Below, one piece after another: positions 36,003 through 46,127 of a stretch of 64,000 nt of DNA (within the stretch, counting starts at the first letter, position 1; every line of letters begins with the position of its first letter). The notes under the pieces are model-generated. The model was given only the letters and a program-made list of their open reading frames with translations. It did no database searches and was not told the DNA's origin. The stretch is from Acidobacteriaceae bacterium (lineage in GTDB: Bacteria; Acidobacteriota; Terriglobia; Terriglobales; Acidobacteriaceae). Location of the stretch: positions 186,001 to 250,000 of the forward strand of contig JAOAPC010000011.1 in the NCBI GenBank assembly GCA_025462735.1, given 5' to 3'. The position numbers and the translations under genes were made by a program.

Positions 36003-36812
36003 TCACGACTTTTTCTGTTCGTACATTTTGCGATCTGCCCCGTCCAGCATCTCGTCGAGCGTGTCCCCTTCTTGCCATTCCGCAACGCCAATGCTCATGC
36101 TAATCCGAAAATCCTTAAGATTACCTGCTTCGTTCCAGTCCGCTACTCTGGCGTTGATCCGTTGAATTACTTTTTGTGCTCCGGCTGCAGTCGAATCCGA
36201 AAGAAGGATCAGAAACTCGTCTCCGCCATAGCGCACCACGGCGTCCGATCCTCGGATCGAAGCTTTCAGAATTCCGGCAATCTCCGCCAGCACGAAGTCG
36301 CCCGTGAGGTGGCCAAAGCGGGTGTTGATCTTCTTAAAGTTGTCTGTGTCGATCATCAGAAAGCTCAGCGCGGCCTTCCGACGACTTGCCTGATTGATGA
36401 ATCGGCCCGCGATCTCATCCAAGCCACGGCGGTTATATATCTCGGTAAGTGGATCGGTGAACGATTGCTGCTCGATTACCTGCTTTTGCAGAGTGCTTGA
36501 GATCAGCTGCTCTCGCAGACGACGAACTTCAAAACGCTTGGTTACCAAATACGTATTCAGGAGTGCGAGCAGCACAAACAGCCCAATGACAAGTGGACGC
36601 GAAACAGTAATTTCGAAGTGGACCGTGTCTTCGCTAAACGCCGCACGGAAAAGAATGGCAAACAGCCCTGTACTGACCAGAATGCCGGCAAGCGAAATAA
36701 TGGCCCAAAGCTCCCAATCCCGCTTCTCCAGCCCTGAGAGTTGCTGGCTGACGCGTGCTAGAGCAGCTTCACTTTGATCCAACATGAGATGCTTTGGGTG
36801 TTTAGAGTTCAT
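36003..36812 (-). CDS. Membrane-anchored diguanylate cyclase
   Basis: Two transmembrane helices (about 34-55 and 72-92) flank a short periplasmic loop and lead through a coil to a GGDEF domain with an intact active site 'YGGDEF' (196-200) and an RxxD inhibitory site (Arg187-Asp190). It should make c-di-GMP from GTP and be feedback-inhibited. A small sensory loop suggests control by partners or membrane state. It precedes the HD-GYP/YfiR/kinase operon, on the same strand but 157 bases downstream of it. Confidence 0.93.
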   Translation of the reverse strand: MNSKHPKHLMLDQSEAALARVSQQLSGLEKRDWELWAIISLAGILVSTGLFAILFRAAFSEDTVHFEITVSRPLVIGLFVLLALLNTYLVTKRFEVRRLREQLISSTLQKQVIEQQSFTDPLTEIYNRRGLDEIAGRFINQASRRKAALSFLMIDTDNFKKINTRFGHLTGDFVLAEIAGILKASIRGSDAVVRYGGDEFLILLSDSTAAGAQKVIQRINARVADWNEAGNLKDFRISMSIGVAEWQEGDTLDEMLDGADRKMYEQKKS

Positions 36813-36969: not shown

Positions 36970-37386
36970 CTAGCTACTCCGTGCCGCGTCAGCCCGACTT
37001 CCGGGAAGGTCTTTAAGCTTTTCCTTCTTCAGAAGACGCTCAAGCTCCTGCTCGAGTGCCAGCGGATTAATTGGTTTTGACAGATAGCCGTCAAAACCCG
37101 AGGTCAGTATCTTCTCCTGGTCCCCCCGCATGGCGTACGCAGTAACGGCCAACACGGGCAACGATCTGAAGCTTGGATTCTTTCGAATCCTTTCTATCGT
37201 CCCAAATCCATCTAACACCGGCATGCTAAGGTCGAGCAGTAAAATATCGGGCCGTGTCTTCGCGATTTGATCCAGGGCTTCCTCGCCGTTGCACGCTTCC
37301 GTCACGGCGTAGCCACGAATTTCAAGGAGCTCACGGAGGAGTTCACGATTCACGGCGTTGTCTTCTGCGATAAGAACGGTTTTCAT
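36970..37386 (-). CDS. CheY-like response regulator
   Basis: A single receiver domain with acidic pocket 'AEDN', phosphoacceptor Asp52 in '[12 protein letters not shown]', Thr in 'VTAYA' and Lys in 'YLSKPIN' is followed by a short basic tail. The ATG overlaps the stop codon of the hybrid kinase gene, so it is the likely terminal receiver of that kinase. With no output domain, it must act by protein binding. Confidence 0.92.
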
Positions 37387-39725
37387 TTTTGGCCTGCAGC
37401 CCTAGCCCGCTTGCCGAGTTTGAGCACTTTGTTAATTTCATCAATTAGTTGCTCCTGCCAGGGACCACTCTTCGAGAACAGCGCCTGAGTTTCGCGGCTG
37501 AGCAGGGCGACTTCCTCGGAGTCTAGGGTCTTTGCTGTCATGACAAAGATAGGCAGGTCACGCAGCGCATCGTTTTCGCGTATGTGACGAATAACCTGAA
37601 AACCGTCCATTTCCGGCATTAACAGGTCAAGCAGAACGGCTCCCACCAACTTTGAGGAGAGGATCTCCAGTGCTCTCCCGCCGGTTTGGACACACTGAGT
37701 TTCGTATCCAACCGACCGGAGTGTCTCCGCCAAGACCTCCAGCGTCCTGACATCATCATCCACGATCAGAATGGCAGAGTCATCATCAGTATGTCGTGGT
37801 ACATACTTGCAAATAGTTTCCAAAAGCAAAGGCTTGCGGATTGGTTTAACTAAATAATCCGTCGCACCCAGGGCGAAGCCCACCTGTTTCTGGTCGATGA
37901 TGGACAGAATGATGATGGGAATGTTGGCCGTCTCAGGCTGCTTCCGTAATGCAACCAAGGTTTCAAAACCATTGCCATTCGCCATCAGCACGTCCAAAAT
38001 AATTGCGTCGGGACGTAACTGTTTTGCCTTTTCCAGGGCTTCGGCACCGGACTCGGCAATGATTAACCGATATAGCGGAGTCAGGTAGCTGGTCAGCAGC
38101 TCACGAGCGGGCAACTCGTCGTCGACCACCAAAATAAGCGGGCTGCTCGGCGCTCCACCGGTGGCTATTGCACCAACGGTTGAGAGATTGGCGAGCTGCA
38201 CCTTGGGACTAGTCTTTGCCAAGGGAAGAGTGACGCTAAACCGACTGCCCTTTCCCAGTTCGCTTTCCAGTGAGATTTTTCCTCCCTGTTGCTCGACGAG
38301 ACGCTTGGTAATGGCAAGCCCCAGGCCGGTTCCTTCCTGGGTGCTCCCCTTGCTTACTTCAACTTGCCGGAACTCCTCGAAAACAAGCTTCTGATCTTCC
38401 GGTCTAATACCGATGCCGGTGTCGGCGACAGAGACGCAGACCGCGCCGCCATTCTCATGGCACTCGATATCGATTCGACCGTCTTTGGGCGTGAATTTCA
38501 CAGCATTACTCAGCAGGTTGTACAGAATCTGCTTAAATCGCACCCGATCAGCAAAAACGCCGAGATCGCTTTCGATCTTCTCCTGGACTGTGATGTGTTT
38601 TGCCATGGCTAACGGTCGAATGGTGGAAAGCACCTCAGGCAAAGCCTCCCCGATTTGGAAAGCTTCACAATGAAATTCAAGCTGGCCGGCTTCAATCTTT
38701 GAGAGGTCCAGAATGTCATTGATTAACTGCAACAGATGAGCCGAGCCTTGCTTTATATGGTGGACGAAGCGATTCTGCTTGTCATTGAGTGGACCCGCGG
38801 TTTGTTCTGCCAAGAGGTCTGAAAAGCCCACAATGGCGTTTAGGGGTGTCCGCAGCTCATGGCTCATGCTGGCCAAAAACTTGCTTTTCAGTTGGGTTGC
38901 GCGTTCGACTTCGCGATTGCGAAGGTCGAGTTCTTTGTTGGCAACGGCGAGCTGAGTCGTGCGTTCCAGGACCCGCTGTTCTAATTCATCTCGAGCTTGG
39001 CGCAGCGCAGTGTCACGTTCTTGAATCTGTCCCAACATCTCGTTGAACGATTCAATCAAGGTCGACACTTCATCACGATTTCCCGTTGCCGCCGCTCGGA
39101 TCGAATAGTCTTTCTCGTGGGAGACGACACGTACAGTCTCCGCCAACTGCACCACGGGTGCGGAAATAACCCGCTGAGATATTCTTGAAATCAGTAATGC
39201 AACGATGAGCGAGAGAACCAATACGGCGACAGCGATCAACGCATAACTTTTGAGGCGATCATTGATCGCTTGCAGATCCGACACTATATAAACAAAGCCC
39301 GTCAATTTGCCTTGGAAGATGATTGCCTGGGCTAATACGATCCGTCCTTTCTCGAACCAGTGAGCTTGCGTCTGCCCGACAGGAACCGCTGGAATTGGCA
39401 AAGCTTTTCCACTGTTTTCCCGCCAATAGCCGGCGAAAAGTTGGCCATCTGGCGTATAAATCGCGCCGTAGATAACGTGTGGAGACGCATTCAGCGCAGA
39501 CAGTGTGTTTCCGGCAGCACGTGGATCGTTAAATACGAGTGCTGAAACCGTGTTCGATCCTAGGATCTGGGCCTCAGTAGACAAATTGTCAACGATGCCG
39601 GCTCGAAACGTGTAGAGGTCGTATGCAAAAAAGGCGATGCATGCCAACAGCAAGGCGGCCCCACTCACCAGCATGTTCATGCCGGTGAGTTTCTTGGAGA
39701 TCGAATAGTGTTGGAATTTGAGCAT
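37383..39725 (-). CDS. Hybrid histidine kinase with CHASE8-like sensor and two receivers
   Basis: Layout: transmembrane helix (20-37); periplasmic domain (about 40-158) resembling the CHASE8 sensor of YfiN ('[19 protein letters not shown]', '[13 protein letters not shown]'); second helix (161-180); HAMP; HisKA with His289 in '[12 protein letters not shown]'; HATPase with 'DTGIGI' and 'GTGLGLAI'; then receivers at about 535-650 and 665-775. In Pseudomonas and E. coli the CHASE8 domain of YfiN is held in check by YfiR. The gene just upstream here encodes a YfiR-like protein, so the kinase probably replaces the cyclase as the regulated partner (inference). An ATG five codons upstream is possible. 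Confidence 0.92.
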
Positions 39726-39729
39726 CGAC

Positions 39730-40362
39730 TCAATCTCCAACCGCGGAATTCTTTCTGACCGTCGTCGCCACCTTAAGCAATTCCGAACTTAGCGTCAGGC
39801 CAGCGTGTTGGGTTGCCGCCAGATTGACTTCGAATCGAACTCTCTTCCCCTCCGGGACAAACTGGATCATGCCGCCAAGCTGAACGAACTGGGGCATATC
39901 GCTGACCGTCAAAATTGCTTTCTTGTCCAATTCGGCGACAATCTTCTTAAGACGGCTGCCCTCGGTGGAACCCAGAAAAATAATGTGGCAATCATCCGAC
40001 TCCTGAGGGCTCGAAATCCGCTTGGCGACTATGCTCTTACCGCCTATGGTTTCTCCGGCAAGCGTGTTATCCAGGCTTGGCCCGAAGGGATCTTGCCCGA
40101 GTACGCAGACAGTAAAATGGCCGCTTTTGGGTGCTGTCGTGATCTGAGCAGGCCACTCGACGAATCGGCCAAAGTTATAAAGGTAGGCAGCTTTAACGTC
40201 GTAGTCAGTAGGTTTCGCGTTTTGCGCGTGTAAAGCAGGAACGCTAAGCAGTCCCCATGCCAAAACTACTACTGTGATCCAGGGATGAAGCCCAAGGCTA
40301 GGCGAAATCGCGTGAACCTGCGGAGTGAGACGGCGAGCGTCTGCGCCATAAAGTTTTTCCAT
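39730..40362 (-). CDS. YfiR-like periplasmic protein (DUF4154)
   Basis: The protein has a signal region ending near 'VPALHAQ' and the DUF4154 pattern '[19 protein letters not shown]', '[12 protein letters not shown]', 'GKSIVAKRI', '[11 protein letters not shown]' and '[19 protein letters not shown]'. The two cysteines in 'FTVCVLG' and 'DDCHIIF' match the conserved structural disulfide of YfiR. YfiR represses YfiN by binding its periplasmic domain. The start at 40362 lies five bases after the receptor stop. The next gene encodes a kinase with a YfiN-type sensor. Confidence 0.9.
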
Positions 40363-40367
40363 GAGTA

Positions 40368-42491
40368 TCAATCCGCAGCCCGCCGCCACGTTATCTCCGC
40401 GTAAGCACTTCTTTCGACACGCACAGAACCGAACTCGGCATGACGAGGTTGGAACAAGTTTTGTCCCGTCACGGAGAGGTCAAACTTCTTTGCAAAGTGC
40501 CAACCCAGCCGGGCGTCTGCCGTTTGATAAGCCTTTACCGACAACGCCGGCAACGCACCCACGTAACGGTAAGTAGGATCAAACTCAAACCCTTTGGGAA
40601 GACTGAACAGAATCTGGGCAGTTGCCAAATTGTGTGGGCTTGATTCTTCGTATGAGGAGACATAACTGGTCTTCGACTTAGTGGGTTTGTCCTCCAGATT
40701 CAGGCTCACATAGGAATATGTGGCCTTAACATCCATCCACCGGGTCGCTTTCCAGTCCGGGGAGATTTCACCCCCGTTGCTCGATCCCATGACGCCGTTG
40801 AGGGCCCGTAGTGAATAGAGAGTGTACGGTGGAGGAGGCGAGGACACAGTCGAGATGGAGATGTCCCCATAACTCGCGAGGTCGTTGTATTTGTTATGAA
40901 ACACTGCAATATCGACATAAAAGTTGCGAGTCACGAGTTTGCGGTACCCGGCTTCATAGCCGAGCAGCGTTTCCGACACGAACTTGTGGTTATCGCAAAT
41001 ACAAAAAAACGTCGGCGGGTTTGCCGACGCCAGCCCGCTAAATTGCATGTCCTCGTCAATACGGGAAGGCGTTCGTACCGCGCGGGTCACGGCGGCCCAT
41101 AACGTCTGATGAGAGGTTGGTGTCCACAAAAGCCGCGCGCCAGGTTCGGTTTCCCACCCGGTGTATACGTTGTGTTCAAACTTCGACCCCAACGTCAACC
41201 AGAGTTTATTTTGCAAAATCGCAATCTGGTCCTGCACGAACGCGCTGTAAATATTGTCGTCTTTATGATGCGGCAGAAAGTTGAGGGAAGCGACAGTCTG
41301 GATAAAGTCGCTGGGACTCCACCGCGCTCCAACTCCCCAGATAACTTCATTTCGCTGCTTGAAGACGAAGTGGTGGATCAAGTCGACGTCGAAAGTGTTG
41401 CGAGTCTCCCCCAGCTGGGGCCCCAGACGGTAGGTCCGGTCATAGTACGCCTGAACTTGGAGGTCAGACGTATTGCTGAGATCACGCCGCCAACGCCCCA
41501 AGAAATTTCCCCCAGATACGTGCTGCGTTCCGTCTACGCTGAGTTCAGCGGGTGGCGAGTAATAACCGATCTCCACCTGCTGTCCGATCCGGCCCTTATA
41601 GAGGTCGCCCTGGACGGTCAGCGTGTCGCGATCATTCAGTCTTGAGTCCGTTCGAAAACCCGCTTGCCCGAGTTGCCAGGCGTCGTAGTTATTACGGTCG
41701 GAGTGGAATTCTGGCGTGCGGCCGAAACCCATCCCGTACGCACGATAATCGAGGCCTTTGAAGCTGCTGCCATAGCGAACCGCATCTCTGCTTTGTTCGA
41801 TATTGCCACTGCCCGCCGATGCGTCGATTCCGTGGGTATGCTGAGCGCTCTTGGTAATAATATTGATGACGCCATTGACTGCGTTCGATCCCCAGATTGT
41901 TCCTCCGGGTCCTCGAATTACTTCGATACGCTCAACATCGTCGAGCAACACATTCTGTACGTCCCAGTAGACGCCAGCATAGAGCGGTGTATAGACGCTC
42001 CGACCGTCGATCAATACCAACACTGATTTTGAGAAACCGTTTCCTAGTCCGCGGATATTAACAGACCACTGATTGGAACTGATTCGTGCCACTTGCACTC
42101 CCGGTACCAGACGAAGTACTTCAGGGATACTCGTGGCGCCGGAACGGCGGATGTCTTCCTGAGTTAGAACGTCAACTGCCGCCGGCGTTTTCCAAATCTC
42201 TTCGGGCTCCTTGGATGCCGTTGTCACCTCAACATTAGCGAGATCTGCGAGGCTTAGTTGCTTGAGGGCGTTTGCTTCACCTTCCTGCGGATCGGCAAAG
42301 CTAGGATTGACTAATCCGACGAGCACAAACAAGGCGATCAGAGCAGCGTGCTGCACAAACGTCACCGCCGACCATCCATCGCTCGAAGCTGAGGCTTCAG
42401 CGGTGTGCTTCGAAATAGCAGCGGAGCATATTTGTTTGCTCATGTCTGATCTCATGTTCTGGAAAGAGTCCCGAAAGAATCCTTTCCTCAT
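40368..42491 (-). CDS. TonB-dependent outer-membrane receptor
   Basis: A hydrophobic signal ('LIALFVLVGLVNPSFA') leads into a plug domain ('SLADLANVEVTTASKEPEEIW', 'VDVLTQEDIRRSGATSIPEV', 'RGLGNGFSKSVLVLIDGRS', 'VERIEVIRGPGGTIWGSNAVNGVINIITK') and a 22-strand barrel of about 500 residues. The ligand is unknown; the plug is close to receptors annotated for vitamin B12 or siderophores. The start taken overlaps the HD-GYP stop (ATGA); the ATG at 42443 gives a more usual signal peptide. Its presence between HD-GYP and YfiR genes is unusual and suggests a signalling role. Confidence 0.92.
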   Translation of the reverse strand: MRKGFFRDSFQNMRSDMSKQICSAAISKHTAEASASSDGWSAVTFVQHAALIALFVLVGLVNPSFADPQEGEANALKQLSLADLANVEVTTASKEPEEIWKTPAAVDVLTQEDIRRSGATSIPEVLRLVPGVQVARISSNQWSVNIRGLGNGFSKSVLVLIDGRSVYTPLYAGVYWDVQNVLLDDVERIEVIRGPGGTIWGSNAVNGVINIITKSAQHTHGIDASAGSGNIEQSRDAVRYGSSFKGLDYRAYGMGFGRTPEFHSDRNNYDAWQLGQAGFRTDSRLNDRDTLTVQGDLYKGRIGQQVEIGYYSPPAELSVDGTQHVSGGNFLGRWRRDLSNTSDLQVQAYYDRTYRLGPQLGETRNTFDVDLIHHFVFKQRNEVIWGVGARWSPSDFIQTVASLNFLPHHKDDNIYSAFVQDQIAILQNKLWLTLGSKFEHNVYTGWETEPGARLLWTPTSHQTLWAAVTRAVRTPSRIDEDMQFSGLASANPPTFFCICDNHKFVSETLLGYEAGYRKLVTRNFYVDIAVFHNKYNDLASYGDISISTVSSPPPPYTLYSLRALNGVMGSSNGGEISPDWKATRWMDVKATYSYVSLNLEDKPTKSKTSYVSSYEESSPHNLATAQILFSLPKGFEFDPTYRYVGALPALSVKAYQTADARLGWHFAKKFDLSVTGQNLFQPRHAEFGSVRVERSAYAEITWRRAAD

Positions 42492-43504
42492 CTGTTCCCA
42501 CCTGCAGCCGCGCTGCGAGATAAGAAACGCGTATTATTGCTCTTAACCAGGCCCTCGAACTCGTCGAAAATGTGCCGGTCCCACCATCCCTTGCCTACTT
42601 CTTGCTTCATCATTTCCAGTGCGTCGGTGATAGAGAGGGCGGTCTTGTAGGGTCTTACCGTGGTAAGCGCGTCGTACACATCCACGACCTGCAAAACTCT
42701 GGCTGTAATCGGTATGGCTTCGCCCGCAAGGCCATCCGGATATCCTGAGCCATCGCACTTTTCATGATGGTGTCGAATGATGGGCAGGACCGAGCGAAAA
42801 GATTTCAAAGGCGCACAGATGCGTTCCCCGACCACCGGATGCTCTCGCATAAGTTTCCATTCGTCCGGCGTCAGGCCACTTGGTTTCAAAATTATGGAGT
42901 CGGGTATCGCGATCTTCCCTATGTCGTGGACCACGCCGGCCCGCCGGAGAGCCGTAATCTGGTCTTCCGGAAGCCCTAGATGTTCGCCCAGAGAGGCCGA
43001 ATACTCCGACAAGCGCTCACAATGACCGTGGGTGTACGGATCCTTGCCTTCGATACTTCGTGCCAGACTAAACAGAACAGACTCGGCGCACTCCAATTCG
43101 TCAGTACGCTGTTTGAGCTTCAAAAGGGACCGGACGCGCGCCAGCAGCTCGGTGCGATCAACCGGGCGAGTAAGAAAATCATCTGCTCCGGCTCGAATGC
43201 CCTCTATGCGGTTCTCTTTGTCAGAAAGGCCAGTGACGAGGATGACAGGTATCAGGTACGTGTCGGGATTGGCCTTGATCTTCTCACATACCTCGAAGCC
43301 GCTCAGTTGAGGCATCATTACGTCAAGAAGCACCAAATCTGTAGCCACTCGGCCTAGCTGGTCGAGGGCCTCAACTCCGTCGGACGCGGTAATGACGTTG
43401 AAGCCTTGAGCAGTAAGAAGCTCACTAAACAATTCCCGATTTGACGCTTGATCGTCAGCGACGAGAATGGTTCCGGTAACTGGATGATTTGAATGGGACA
43501 ACAC
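42488..43504 (-). CDS. Response regulator with HD-GYP phosphodiesterase output
   Basis: A receiver domain (phosphoacceptor Asp61 in 'VLLDVMMPQLSG') is joined by a helix to an HD-GYP domain with the metal-binding 'HDIGK' (His193-Asp194) and 'HHEKCDGSGYPDGL' (246-259). This is the RpfG architecture: phosphorylation controls hydrolysis of c-di-GMP. All motif residues are present, so it should be active. It is the first gene of a five-gene overlapping operon with the receptor, YfiR, hybrid kinase and CheY-like protein. Confidence 0.94.
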   Translation of the reverse strand: MLSHSNHPVTGTILVADDQASNRELFSELLTAQGFNVITASDGVEALDQLGRVATDLVLLDVMMPQLSGFEVCEKIKANPDTYLIPVILVTGLSDKENRIEGIRAGADDFLTRPVDRTELLARVRSLLKLKQRTDELECAESVLFSLARSIEGKDPYTHGHCERLSEYSASLGEHLGLPEDQITALRRAGVVHDIGKIAIPDSIILKPSGLTPDEWKLMREHPVVGERICAPLKSFRSVLPIIRHHHEKCDGSGYPDGLAGEAIPITARVLQVVDVYDALTTVRPYKTALSITDALEMMKQEVGKGWWDRHIFDEFEGLVKSNNTRFLSRSAAAGGNR

Positions 43505-43605: not shown

Positions 43606-44286
43606 CTACGGATTTTCTACTTGACTGATGAATTTCCGGATTGCTTCGTGGGCTTCATTGGTCAATTTAGCGAACTCGATTCCTTGCCGGGTCTCATTCC
43701 CCCATTTAACTGTGCCGTTGGCGTCAATCACCACGCCGGAAGTGGGCAATCGGAATGATACGCGGACCTTATCGCCGGGTGAGAGGTGTCCGGCTTCCAC
43801 TTGAATCCCGCCCTGGCTAAGGTTCCAAGTTCTGCCTTGGCTGGCTTTGGCCCCCACTTTGCAAGTTACTTCCGTTTGCAACGGCACGCGAGCGTATCGG
43901 CGTCGGTTCTCTACCATTGTTCCGCGGACAGCGCGAAATAAGATGGCCAACTTGCGTTTGTCTATCGGTTTTTGAAGAAAAAACGTGGCTCCAGTCGCAA
44001 AGGCTTGCTGCATTGTGTCTCGCTCATCCCGCGCAGTAACAATGACAATTGGCGTCAACCTGTTCCAAGACGATGTGCGAACTTCTTTCGCCAGCGCGAA
44101 GCCGTTTAGATTCGGCATCTCCAAATCAAGGAAGATTCCATCAAACTTCTCCTGGTTAACCAGAACGGCTGCTTCCTGACTGTCACTAAGCGGGCGAACC
44201 TCTGCTTCAAGCGATCGAAGAACCTCAGTCATTAGTTCCAGGCTCGCGGGATCGTCTTCGACGACCAGAACTTTTAGTGACAACAT
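43606..44286 (-). CDS. Receiver-PilZ protein
   Basis: The 226-residue protein has a receiver domain (Asp54 in 'FLDLEMPNLNG') and a PilZ domain with both c-di-GMP-binding motifs, 'RRYAR' (RxxxR) and 'NLSQGG' (NxSxxG). It can therefore read both a phosphorelay and c-di-GMP. A GGAGGAAAC site just before the ATG at 44286 fixes the start. It lies between the HD-GYP operon and a glycosyltransferase operon, a place suited to link them. Confidence 0.92.
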   Translation of the reverse strand: MLSLKVLVVEDDPASLELMTEVLRSLEAEVRPLSDSQEAAVLVNQEKFDGIFLDLEMPNLNGFALAKEVRTSSWNRLTPIVIVTARDERDTMQQAFATGATFFLQKPIDKRKLAILFRAVRGTMVENRRRYARVPLQTEVTCKVGAKASQGRTWNLSQGGIQVEAGHLSPGDKVRVSFRLPTSGVVIDANGTVKWGNETRQGIEFAKLTNEAHEAIRKFISQVENP

Positions 44287-44708
44287 CTTGTTTCCTCCGA
44301 GGCATGCGGCAAAGGGGTTTGCTGAATTGTCACTAAACCGAGCGCAGAATATCAAGAGGCCATTTGTTGGCTCGTGGCTCGATCAGAAGTTCTGACGACG
44401 TTATGGATGGGTGCTGATGCCGCAGACTTAACCCACAGCAAGGCGGCACCTCACAATTCGAAGGCGAGGGAAAGACAAACAACCTGGACTGCCCACTGCA
44501 TTATCGATCTTGGTTCTTATCTTCTCATGCCAGCGCTTACCCGCCGCTTCAGCCGTAATGCGGCTCATTACTCCAGGCGCTGGTTGCCGCTCTAAGGGTC
44601 CGGGGCCTACGTTCCGGCCCTTTTCGTTTTAGTGTTTTCTATTTCCTGGCTTCCATTATGCGTAACTCCTGAAAGTGACTCTGTCCAGAGTCTCCACGAG
44701 AGCCGAAC
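44287..44708. other. Intergenic region with a plus-strand terminator and no plus-strand gene
   Basis: These 422 bases hold the promoter of the receiver-PilZ gene (minus strand) and the downstream flank of the glycosyltransferase gene. No protein frame is convincing. The terminator described next points along the plus strand, so a small RNA ending near 44630 is possible. Confidence 0.4.
44594..44630 (+). terminator. Intrinsic-terminator-like hairpin without an obvious upstream gene
   Basis: The arms aaggg-t-ccgg and ccgg-cccttt form a GC-rich stem with one bulged T and a 10-base loop, followed by TTTTCGTTTT on the plus strand. On the minus strand the tail is only CTTAGAG. It could be a shared terminator for the minus-strand glycosyltransferase operon or the end of an unrecognised plus-strand RNA. 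Confidence 0.55.
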
Positions 44709-46127
44709 CTACTCCTGCTGCGTCACGGCTGACTGAAGTCCGCCACGTTGAAGCACTCCCCAGGCGATATCGCCACGCAAGTACTGCCACATACCCTGCA
44801 GGCGCCACACCATCTGTAACTGCCGATATGGAAAATGCTCAAGAAAGCAATAGCTAACCAGCCGAGTTACATCCTGCCAATCGTTATACCGCTTGTAAGT
44901 CAGTTCTTCCAAAACGACAGAACCGATGGAAATCACAGTTGCGAATGCATAACCAAACATCAGGAACTGCACAAAAAATTCACGGCTCAGGACGCCCGCA
45001 CAAGCCGCCAATATGATGGTAAGGATTCCGCCCACTTCGATGACTGGGGCCAATAGCTCAAAAAGCCAAAGGTATGGCAGGGCGAACCATCCAATGCGTC
45101 CATAACGTAATCGGAATAGCATGTCTCTTTGTGGCCAGAGCACATCTAACAAACCCTTCTGCCATCGCGATCTCTGTGTGCGAAGTGATGCCAGATCAGA
45201 GGGAGCTTCAGTCCAGCACACCGGGTCCGGGACAAAGCAAATCTCGTACTTTTCTCCTCTGTCGCGCATGTAACGATGCAAACGTGTAACCAGATCAATG
45301 TCTTCCCCGATAGCATGAGAGCGGTAGCCACCTATAGCTCGCACCAAGTCCGTCCTGAAAACACCAAAGGCGCCGGAAATTATCAGAAGCATGTTTTTGC
45401 CCGCCCATGCCTCTCGTCCAATCAGGAAAGCGCGCAAATATTCAATCACCTGTAGGATCTCGATGCTCTTTCTGGGCAGACGGACGCGGCGCATTCTTCC
45501 GCCTTCGAGCTCCGAGCCGTTCAACACACGAACTATCCCACCCACAGCGATTACACGCTTCGGATCAGCCAATACCGGCGTCATAATCCGCAAGAGGGAA
45601 TCGCGTTCCAGAACTGAATCTGCATCAACTATGCAAATATAAGGCGACGTTACCGCGTTTAGTCCGGCATTGATCGCATCTGCCTTGCTGCCACCCGAAT
45701 CCTTGTCGATGACCAGGAGATTCGGGGCCAGGTCGCTTCGATAGAGTTGCCGCACTGGCGCGCTCAAAACTGCCGGAACGTACACTGCTTTCACCGGACG
45801 GAGCCGGAATTCCTGTTGCAGCAACTCAAGAGTCCTGTCCGATGACCCGTCATTGATGACAATCAATTCGAGTTCCGAATAATCCAGGTTGAGCAGATTC
45901 CTAACGGCGATGCAGACGGACTTCTCCTCATTGCGAGCAGGCATCAGAATGGTGATTGGGGGAGTCAACGGTGAAAGCTTGATCCAATCAGCATGAAGCC
46001 CTTTAATCCGATGTTGGTGACGAATGCTGGTGTGCAGTGCAGCCATCAGCATAATTAGATATGCCGTGTTGCAGCACATGTAATAGTAGAAGAGTGCCAG
46101 GTTAGAGAATTCTAGAAAGTGAATCAT
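44709..46127 (-). CDS. Membrane glycosyltransferase, family 2 (processive type)
   Basis: The protein has N-terminal hydrophobic segments (about 10-32), a GT-A domain with 'PARNEEKS', 'VINDGSSDRT', the UDP-binding 'DAD' (168-170), the catalytic base motif 'GEDID' (274-278) and the processivity motif 'QRSRW' (318-322), and three or four C-terminal helices. This is the layout of PgaC, hyaluronan synthase and BcsA-like enzymes, so it polymerises and exports a polysaccharide. It lacks its own PilZ domain; the neighbouring receiver-PilZ protein could supply c-di-GMP control (inference). The start overlaps the HEAT gene by ATGA. Confidence 0.92.
   Translation of the reverse strand: MIHFLEFSNLALFYYYMCCNTAYLIMLMAALHTSIRHQHRIKGLHADWIKLSPLTPPITILMPARNEEKSVCIAVRNLLNLDYSELELIVINDGSSDRTLELLQQEFRLRPVKAVYVPAVLSAPVRQLYRSDLAPNLLVIDKDSGGSKADAINAGLNAVTSPYICIVDADSVLERDSLLRIMTPVLADPKRVIAVGGIVRVLNGSELEGGRMRRVRLPRKSIEILQVIEYLRAFLIGREAWAGKNMLLIISGAFGVFRTDLVRAIGGYRSHAIGEDIDLVTRLHRYMRDRGEKYEICFVPDPVCWTEAPSDLASLRTQRSRWQKGLLDVLWPQRDMLFRLRYGRIGWFALPYLWLFELLAPVIEVGGILTIILAACAGVLSREFFVQFLMFGYAFATVISIGSVVLEELTYKRYNDWQDVTRLVSYCFLEHFPYRQLQMVWRLQGMWQYLRGDIAWGVLQRGGLQSAVTQQE

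Follow-up and report, generated by a model that had tools for sequence, protein, structure and literature searches.

The best-known signalling by TonB-dependent receptors (TBDRs) runs via FecR-like anti-sigma factors, as in FecA-FecR-FecI, and the YfiBNR system of Pseudomonas aeruginosa, which has a counterpart in HmsCDE of Yersinia, comprises a YfiR-type periplasmic protein, an inner-membrane partner with CHASE8 and HAMP domains (YfiN) and an OmpA-type protein, YfiB. Here we describe a five-gene operon that encodes, among others, a TBDR, a YfiR-like protein and a hybrid histidine kinase with a CHASE8 domain, found in a stretch of 64,000 nucleotides, hereafter the window, from an Acidobacteriaceae bacterium (assembly GCA_025462735.1, contig JAOAPC010000011.1, positions 186,001 to 250,000 of the forward strand). 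Judged from its sequence, the operon appears to be a pathway by which external signals reach the cell interior, and comparison with other genomes indicates that it is one copy of a widespread, predicted receptor-YfiR-kinase signalling unit.

With YfiBNR the window operon shares the YfiR-type periplasmic protein, the inner-membrane partner combining CHASE8 and HAMP domains, and a conserved Phe70. It differs in output, which is a hybrid kinase (HisKA-HATPase-REC-REC) and not a GGDEF domain, GGDEF output being found in locus L059 and a few others; in the gene for the outer-membrane partner, a TBDR instead of an OmpA-type YfiB; and in the YfiR subfamily, the window protein lacking, as judged by eye, the cysteine pair that matches C145-C152. 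With FecA-FecR-FecI it has in common a TBDR as the input of envelope-crossing signalling, but a kinase is found instead of anti-sigma and sigma factors, and the window TBDR contains no STN signalling domain, Pfam giving Plug and barrel only. A FecA-type system was dropped as a candidate for this last reason. Genes for anti-sigma or ECF sigma factors are likewise absent beside the window TBDR, whose neighbours are receiver, PilZ, GGDEF, glycosyltransferase, HEAT, TPR and UnbV_ASPIC genes, plus one open reading frame (ORF) of 135 amino acids giving no match.

Replacement of the GGDEF domain by histidine kinases in YfiNR systems was described by Malone et al. in 2012; in the available text of that paper, almost all kinase-output YfiNR operons are said to be without yfiB, and the legend of Figure S5 refers to an aligned YfiNR pair from Acidobacteria (PMC3375315). 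These divergent systems share with the window operon a YfiR-YfiN[PAS] core and a histidine kinase output, Acidobacteria included, and the word "TonB" occurs 0 times in the main text (PMC3375315). In addition, release 20 of NCBIfam holds models for the TOL_0244 TBDR (NF053590), the TOL_0243 YfiR-like protein (YfiR_like_TOL0243, NF053591) and a "YfiR-like protein-associated" kinase (HK_near_YfiR_like, NF053592), which are the same gene families as the window trio: YfiR (154.1 bits, cut-off 125) and the kinase (217.2 bits, cut-off 194) pass, and the TBDR falls narrowly short (615.2 bits, cut-off 645), its next best family scoring 112 bits. Such entries are sequence models, with names and cut-offs and no mechanism. 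Since the kinase swap was published in 2012 and all three families are catalogued, the system is already known in kind, and an earlier note on this DNA, made from the letters alone, went too far in saying that it knew of no described system with exactly this make-up. The parts are already catalogued as sequence families; what a literature search, confined to openly licensed papers, did not find in print is a link between TBDR and YfiR.

The five genes all lie on the minus strand (Table 1), in the order REC-HD-GYP response regulator, TBDR, YfiR, hybrid kinase and single receiver (REC), as deduced from ORF translations and Pfam, with CHASE8, DUF4154 (YfiR), TBDR, HD-GYP and receiver domains all over the Pfam cut-offs. 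Overlaps of 4 bp join HD-GYP to TBDR and kinase to REC; with the ATG starts of Table 1, gaps of 5 and 4 bp separate TBDR from YfiR and YfiR from the kinase, whereas the earlier GTG or TTG starts in the ORF list would give overlaps of 22 and 11 bp. With the ATG starts, the order and the spacing of five bases or fewer, as originally put forward, were thus borne out. A scan for promoters and terminators returned nothing beyond what shuffled sequences gave.

Three YfiR domains are found in the genome of origin. Besides the window locus, a second copy (L006) consists of TBDR, YfiR, CHASE8 hybrid kinase, REC and REC-PAS-GGDEF-EAL, and the third (L007) is a fusion of YfiR to a TonB C-terminal domain (TonB_C), and the 12 kb examined there showed neither a TBDR nor a kinase. 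Fifteen plug matches occur in the same genome; against a profile made from receptors linked to YfiR, the two that adjoin YfiR reach 931 and 838 bits, and the third best 126. In a survey of 247 genomes of the phylum, 76 YfiR domains passed the cut-off, in 52 genomes, and 66 of them, in 50 of the 52, are followed by CHASE8 on the same strand within 255 bp. Maps were drawn for 63 YfiR loci (60, plus the three of the genome itself; 13 of the 76 hits lie outside the mapping), with domain models built from window and locus seeds, for which reason weak domains may have been missed. A TBDR gene is present in 53 of the 63 loci. TBDR and CHASE8 both adjoin YfiR in 32 of the 63, CHASE8 is next with the TBDR farther off or divergent in 13, CHASE8 lies upstream and the TBDR downstream in 2, and 2 loci are YfiR-TonB_C fusions. 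In L059 the kinase's place is taken by CHASE8-HAMP-GGDEF-EAL, nearer to the classical output, and in the two genomes closest by TBDR identity (51 and 47%) a receiver gene lies upstream of the TBDR (REC in L056, REC-REC in L048). Whether the synteny is unique to this genome, a point on which the earlier note had let its case depend, has a divided answer: the core trio recurs widely, but of the complete five-gene order with REC-HD-GYP first no second case was found among the mapped loci.

The trio is also found well outside the phylum. Species genomes were scanned with the TBDR as anchor; in the best 80 of at least 585 relatives, YfiR lies within 700 bp downstream in 58 (same strand, domain start between -100 and +700 bp from the end of the TBDR match) and elsewhere in the locus in 7 more. 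Behind YfiR, 49 of these 58 have CHASE8, in 40 cases as a kinase, in 2 as a kinase fused to REC-PAS-GGDEF-EAL and in 4 as a GGDEF-EAL protein, 3 being cut. The record titles of the 58, mostly metagenome bins, name Acidobacteria, Proteobacteria, Desulfobacteraceae, Nitrospira, Nitrospinaceae, Verrucomicrobia, Deferribacteres, Anammoxibacter, Zixibacteriota, Krumholzibacteriia, Armatimonadota and Wallbacteria. Geomonas limicola (L187) and Thiocystis minor (L142) are among the records with the trio. Among 274 genomes of Gammaproteobacteria, where the best 80 TBDR places of a longer list (down to 151 bits) and 73 of 76 YfiR places were compared, sub-cut-off matches included, a same-strand YfiR match lies within 1 kb of 25 of the 33 TBDRs above 400 bits, as against 2 of the 47 at 250 bits or less; of these two distant receptors one (G284) is a fragment lying where its contig ends. 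The genome searches in the phylum and in Gammaproteobacteria scored at most four TBDR candidates per genome, so that their TBDR lists are incomplete. Among 72,556 plasmid records, 6 contain a match to the window TBDR with E <= 1e-30, all with YfiR beside it (Sphingobium, Indioceanicola, Pseudoalteromonas). Two out of five further plasmid records with YfiR were examined, and they show a more distant TBDR in the order TBDR-YfiR-EAL protein (Caballeronia) and the classical yfiR-tpbB-OmpA order (Pseudomonas aeruginosa).

Some of these loci have peculiarities of their own. In both Pseudoalteromonas plasmids (L107, L108) the TBDR gene is split over two frames, and in that of strain HL-AS1 (L107) an IS30 transposase gene lies between TBDR and YfiR. 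Genes for TBDR and YfiR occur in tandem in L168, L183 (Nitrosomonas) and L141 (Geobacteraceae). The first two show no CHASE8 over the stretch examined; L141 reads TBDR-YfiR-TBDR-YfiR-CHASE8 kinase, as though several receptors feed one kinase.

Pairwise divergence of the parts was compared over 69 loci having TBDR, YfiR and CHASE8 kinase, with 1000 permutations for each pair and a rerun thinned to 59 loci. YfiR and CHASE8 diverge in step (rho 0.44, 0 of 1000 permutations; thinned 0.38, 0), and so do YfiR and the TBDR barrel (0.36, 0; thinned 0.31, 1) and CHASE8 and the barrel (0.25, 0; thinned 0.20, 11), the yardstick being a rho of 0.80 between plug and barrel of one TBDR. In contrast, divergence of the kinase core is not tied to that of YfiR (-0.09, 846; thinned -0.13), and only weakly to that of CHASE8, located on the same chain (0.12, 34; thinned 0.10, 103). 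Shared operon ancestry can yield such correlations without contact, and here the kinase core serves as an inner control. As YfiR, CHASE8 and TBDR change together and the kinase core hardly with them, the trio appears to form a fixed sensory unit with a swappable output.

The kinase retains its H, N, G1 and G2 boxes, as checked by eye, and its periplasmic domain passes the curated Pfam cut-off for CHASE8 (Table 1). According to Malone et al., YfiN Phe70, in the AAVVF patch, was proposed to meet the YfiR surface around F162 (PMC3375315). A Phe of the window CHASE8 aligns with YfiN F70 and is kept in the aligned column in 103 of 105 kinases and in 9 of 9 GGDEF proteins; the column was preferred to a loose AAVVF search, which recovers 30 of the 105 kinases only, because the consensus here is NSxAALxF. 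The claim that a kinase with a YfiN-type periplasmic domain stands in YfiN's place is supported, and the CHASE8 profile match, the other point on which the earlier note's case depended, was obtained. P. aeruginosa YfiN itself scores 102.6 bits on NF053592. On the YfiR side, alignment places a Phe of the window protein at the PAO1 F162 position, which is invariant in a first alignment (21/21) and a Phe in 75 of 91 YfiR from trio loci.

Against the classical, sequestration-family YfiR model (NF053586) the window YfiR scores 39.5 bits, under the cut-off of 85, P. aeruginosa YfiR scoring 172.7; an E. coli control is picked up by the YfiR-like model, though below the cut-off of that model. The cysteine pair matching PAO1 C71-C110 is retained, as seen by eye in the alignment. 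No clean division of conserved YfiR residues by partner was obtained, and 4 of the 9 loci without TBDR (L055, L067-L069) come from one genus (g28). In P. aeruginosa the YfiR surface that binds YfiB partly coincides with the residues through which YfiR is predicted to contact YfiN (PMC4655355), and the YfiR pocket weakly binds vitamin B6 or L-Trp (PMC4887326), so that both docking to a receptor and binding of a ligand are possible roles here. YfiR-TonB_C fusions were located at L007:6443-7231, in the genome of origin, and at L075:7732-8598, the latter adjoining a TBDR gene, the former not. Eight YfiR-like places are present in the genome of Methylomonas fluvii (L138).

As for the receptor, the AlphaFold model of the window TBDR has a mean pLDDT of 82.8, and its nearest solved folds are PirA, Cir, BtuB and PfeA. 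The paralogous TBDR of the same genome scores 665.5 bits on NF053590, over the cut-off of 645, and its closest named relatives are Acidobacteria records L110-L113, at 65-70% identity. Counts of a pre-plug VTSxSK motif do not separate linked (59/100) from unlinked receptors (21/46). In the first set of loci, which includes the window region, no YfiB-type OmpA gene was found with a model seeded from 7 sequences, YfiB among them, and lacking an independent YfiB positive control; a single ORF was matched in the second locus set, about 3 kb from a TBDR and on the other strand. A nearby YfiB gene was dropped as a candidate, the OmpA scan giving no match at the window. The suggestion that the receptor takes YfiB's place is favoured by the lack of a YfiB or OmpA gene nearby and by one TBDR subfamily being the usual neighbour of such YfiR, whereas the relay from the outer membrane to YfiR is something we infer.

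TOL_0244 of Thalassolituus oleivorans, after which the TBDR family model closest to the window receptor is named, was sevenfold up on n-C28 versus Tween 80 in a proteome study; its similarity to OmpS of Alcanivorax dieselolei, which that study cites as indispensable for detecting alkanes, is 40.3%, and the word "YfiR" occurs 0 times in the available text (PMC6304351). OmpS of Alcanivorax, also dealt with in PMC9788540 and PMC5174103, is cited as an alkane sensor and chemotaxis trigger.

The single receiver and both kinase receivers retain the acceptor Asp and the Lys, and the HD-GYP protein its HD and GYP motifs, as judged by eye from translations. For the window locus, an output in cyclic di-GMP (c-di-GMP) is likely from its neighbour genes, and it is likely for some other loci by fusion or adjacency. 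Of 75 kinase-type loci, 27 have a receiver gene right behind the kinase and 20 an enzyme of c-di-GMP turnover in the cluster, REC-PAS-GGDEF-EAL being the commonest; no mapped locus besides that of the window has REC-HD-GYP immediately upstream of the TBDR. The density of c-di-GMP genes is 3.53 per 100 kb near kinase loci and 2.05 farther out in these loci (n=20 and 11), a modest excess, for which reason c-di-GMP is not claimed as the general output. In the proposed relay to phosphorylation and c-di-GMP turnover, the step to c-di-GMP hydrolysis is the weaker part, the link from the trio to c-di-GMP being local. Two single open frames (L152:10773-15486 and L188:10781-15626) combine a CHASE8 kinase with three receivers, PAS and GGDEF-EAL.

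The reading we prefer, with a probability of about 0.55, is a relay in which the receptor, in YfiB's place, senses, YfiR shuttles and the CHASE8 kinase transmits. At the outer membrane, the TBDR would sense a ligand and possibly import it. In the resting state, YfiR would be bound to the CHASE8 domain, the kinase being held in one signalling state; the loaded TBDR would draw YfiR to its periplasmic face and thereby release the kinase. Phosphate would then travel through both receivers of the kinase to REC-HD-GYP and to the single-domain receiver, the c-di-GMP level would change, and the neighbouring REC-PilZ and GGDEF genes would serve the same c-di-GMP. Binding of YfiR to CHASE8, and its sign, are carried over by analogy from P. 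aeruginosa YfiBNR, while the TBDR-YfiR contact, the identity of the phosphorylated receiver and the ligand are what we infer beyond it. The relay draws support from the gene make-up, the intact motifs, the recurring trio, the conserved YfiN-type Phe and the linked divergence of TBDR, YfiR and CHASE8, and further from the overlap of YfiB- and YfiN-facing surfaces on P. aeruginosa YfiR, the single OmpA match over all loci scanned, the YfiR-TonB_C fusions, the fusions of kinase to REC-PAS-GGDEF-EAL (L152, L188) and the citation of OmpS as a sensor.

Several observations weigh against it. In the phylum, YfiR is missing from the place just upstream of 24 of the 90 CHASE8 domains that pass the cut-off, and among the 63 mapped loci 9 have CHASE8 without a TBDR in the stretch and 5 a TBDR without CHASE8. 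No YfiR was found in 15 of the 80 TBDR-anchored loci (4 of the 15 with less than 600 bp of contig left), and 27 of the 73 gammaproteobacterial YfiR places adjoin one of the best 80 TBDR places. The F162-position Phe is also present in 18 of 20 YfiR without detected CHASE8, yet in just 4 of the 9 from loci that have CHASE8 and lack a TBDR, so it is no mark of CHASE8 binding alone. Divergence of the plug follows YfiR more weakly than that of the barrel does (rho 0.21, 14 of 1000; thinned 0.15, 69) and equally follows the kinase core (0.21, 7 of 1000). The receiver of the HD-GYP protein reads LTRP by eye, with Arg at the place of the conserved Lys, and the YfiR-TonB_C fusions lend weak support because TonB_C is common in the window's genome (18 places over the cut-off).

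The main rival has the TBDR as a plain transporter, the imported ligand binding to YfiR and ligand-bound YfiR acting on the CHASE8 kinase, with no touch between TBDR and YfiR; periplasmic binding proteins act on TorS or LuxQ in a comparable ligand-bound fashion. YfiR divergence is tied more closely to the barrel than to the plug, which agrees better with a common ligand than with contact at the plug, and a VTTAS stretch ahead of the plug of the window TBDR, noted by eye, could be a TonB box. However, the pocket of P. aeruginosa YfiR is just partly kept in the alignment (L190, T193, L200, S202 and L205 in the window, L166, I169, V176, P178 and L181 in PAO1), and the YfiR-TonB_C fusions would be left unexplained, so that we consider import possible but rather unlikely. 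Quite improbable, in our estimate, is that kinase and YfiR sense something else, such as redox state or envelope stress, with the TBDR a regulated target placed in the operon for co-expression. P. aeruginosa YfiR does respond to redox state without YfiB (PMC3375315), the window YfiR keeps one cysteine pair, and the TBDR gene varies in position, being upstream, downstream or divergent; but Pfam detects no DNA-binding domain in the five operon proteins or the two scanned neighbours, the linkage is to one TBDR subfamily and not to TBDRs generally, as the gammaproteobacterial counts show, and the TBDR changes in parallel with YfiR and CHASE8. Lastly, the genes might be chance neighbours, or members of a generic operon without functional coupling. 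The exact five-gene order, unmatched among mapped loci, would agree with this, but the trio recurs in loci titled from about a dozen major bacterial groups, and for the trio chance synteny was rejected by the phylum, TBDR-anchored and Gammaproteobacteria counts; we regard such an explanation as very improbable, although chance neighbourhood may apply to the HD-GYP, PilZ and GGDEF genes.

Beyond the window, and only tentatively, with somewhat less than even odds, the TBDR subfamily might represent a second, FecR-independent class of transducing receptors, using soluble YfiR as a shuttle to a CHASE8 transmitter. The three parts would then make up an ancient, fixed sensory unit present in many bacterial groups, kinases, GGDEF-EAL enzymes and phosphorelays having been grafted onto it, and classical YfiBNR would be derived, a peptidoglycan-binding lipoprotein having replaced the receptor. 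If this is true, there would be a second common route, by which a small periplasmic shuttle connects TBDRs with histidine kinases, and at certain loci with c-di-GMP as well; YfiNR systems without YfiB would gain a candidate outer-membrane partner, and there would be a handle on what YfiR senses.

Table 1. Genes of the operon and neighbouring genes in the window (REC, receiver domain)
Feature	Position	Strand	Evidence and remarks
REC-HD-GYP response regulator (predicted c-di-GMP phosphodiesterase)	42488..43504	-	Pfam HD_5 140.9 bits, REC 98.3 bits; HD and GYP motifs by eye
TonB-dependent receptor (TBDR)	40368..42491	-	Pfam Plug 88.7 bits, barrel 83 bits
YfiR-like periplasmic protein	39730..40362	-	DUF4154 161.5 bits (cut-off 24.9); ATG start 40362; GTG start 40389 also open
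Hybrid histidine kinase, TM-CHASE8-TM-HAMP-HisKA-HATPase-REC-REC	37383..39725	-	Pfam; CHASE8 52 bits (cut-off 27); ATG start 39725
Single-domain receiver	36970..37386	-	REC 98.3 bits
REC-PilZ protein (predicted c-di-GMP effector)	43606..44355	-	REC 87 bits, PilZ 55.8 bits; 101 bp upstream of HD-GYP gene; candidate operon member
GGDEF protein (predicted diguanylate cyclase)	36003..36812	-	GGDEF 140.6 bits; GGDEF and RxxD motifs by eye; 157 bp downstream of receiver gene; candidate operon member
Glycosyltransferase 2 gene	44709-46127		Upstream of REC-PilZ gene; best likeness poly-GlcNAc synthase, 116.1 bits, far under cut-off 422.3

The last gene of Table 1, distantly similar to poly-GlcNAc synthase, points to exopolysaccharide as a possible target of c-di-GMP at this locus.

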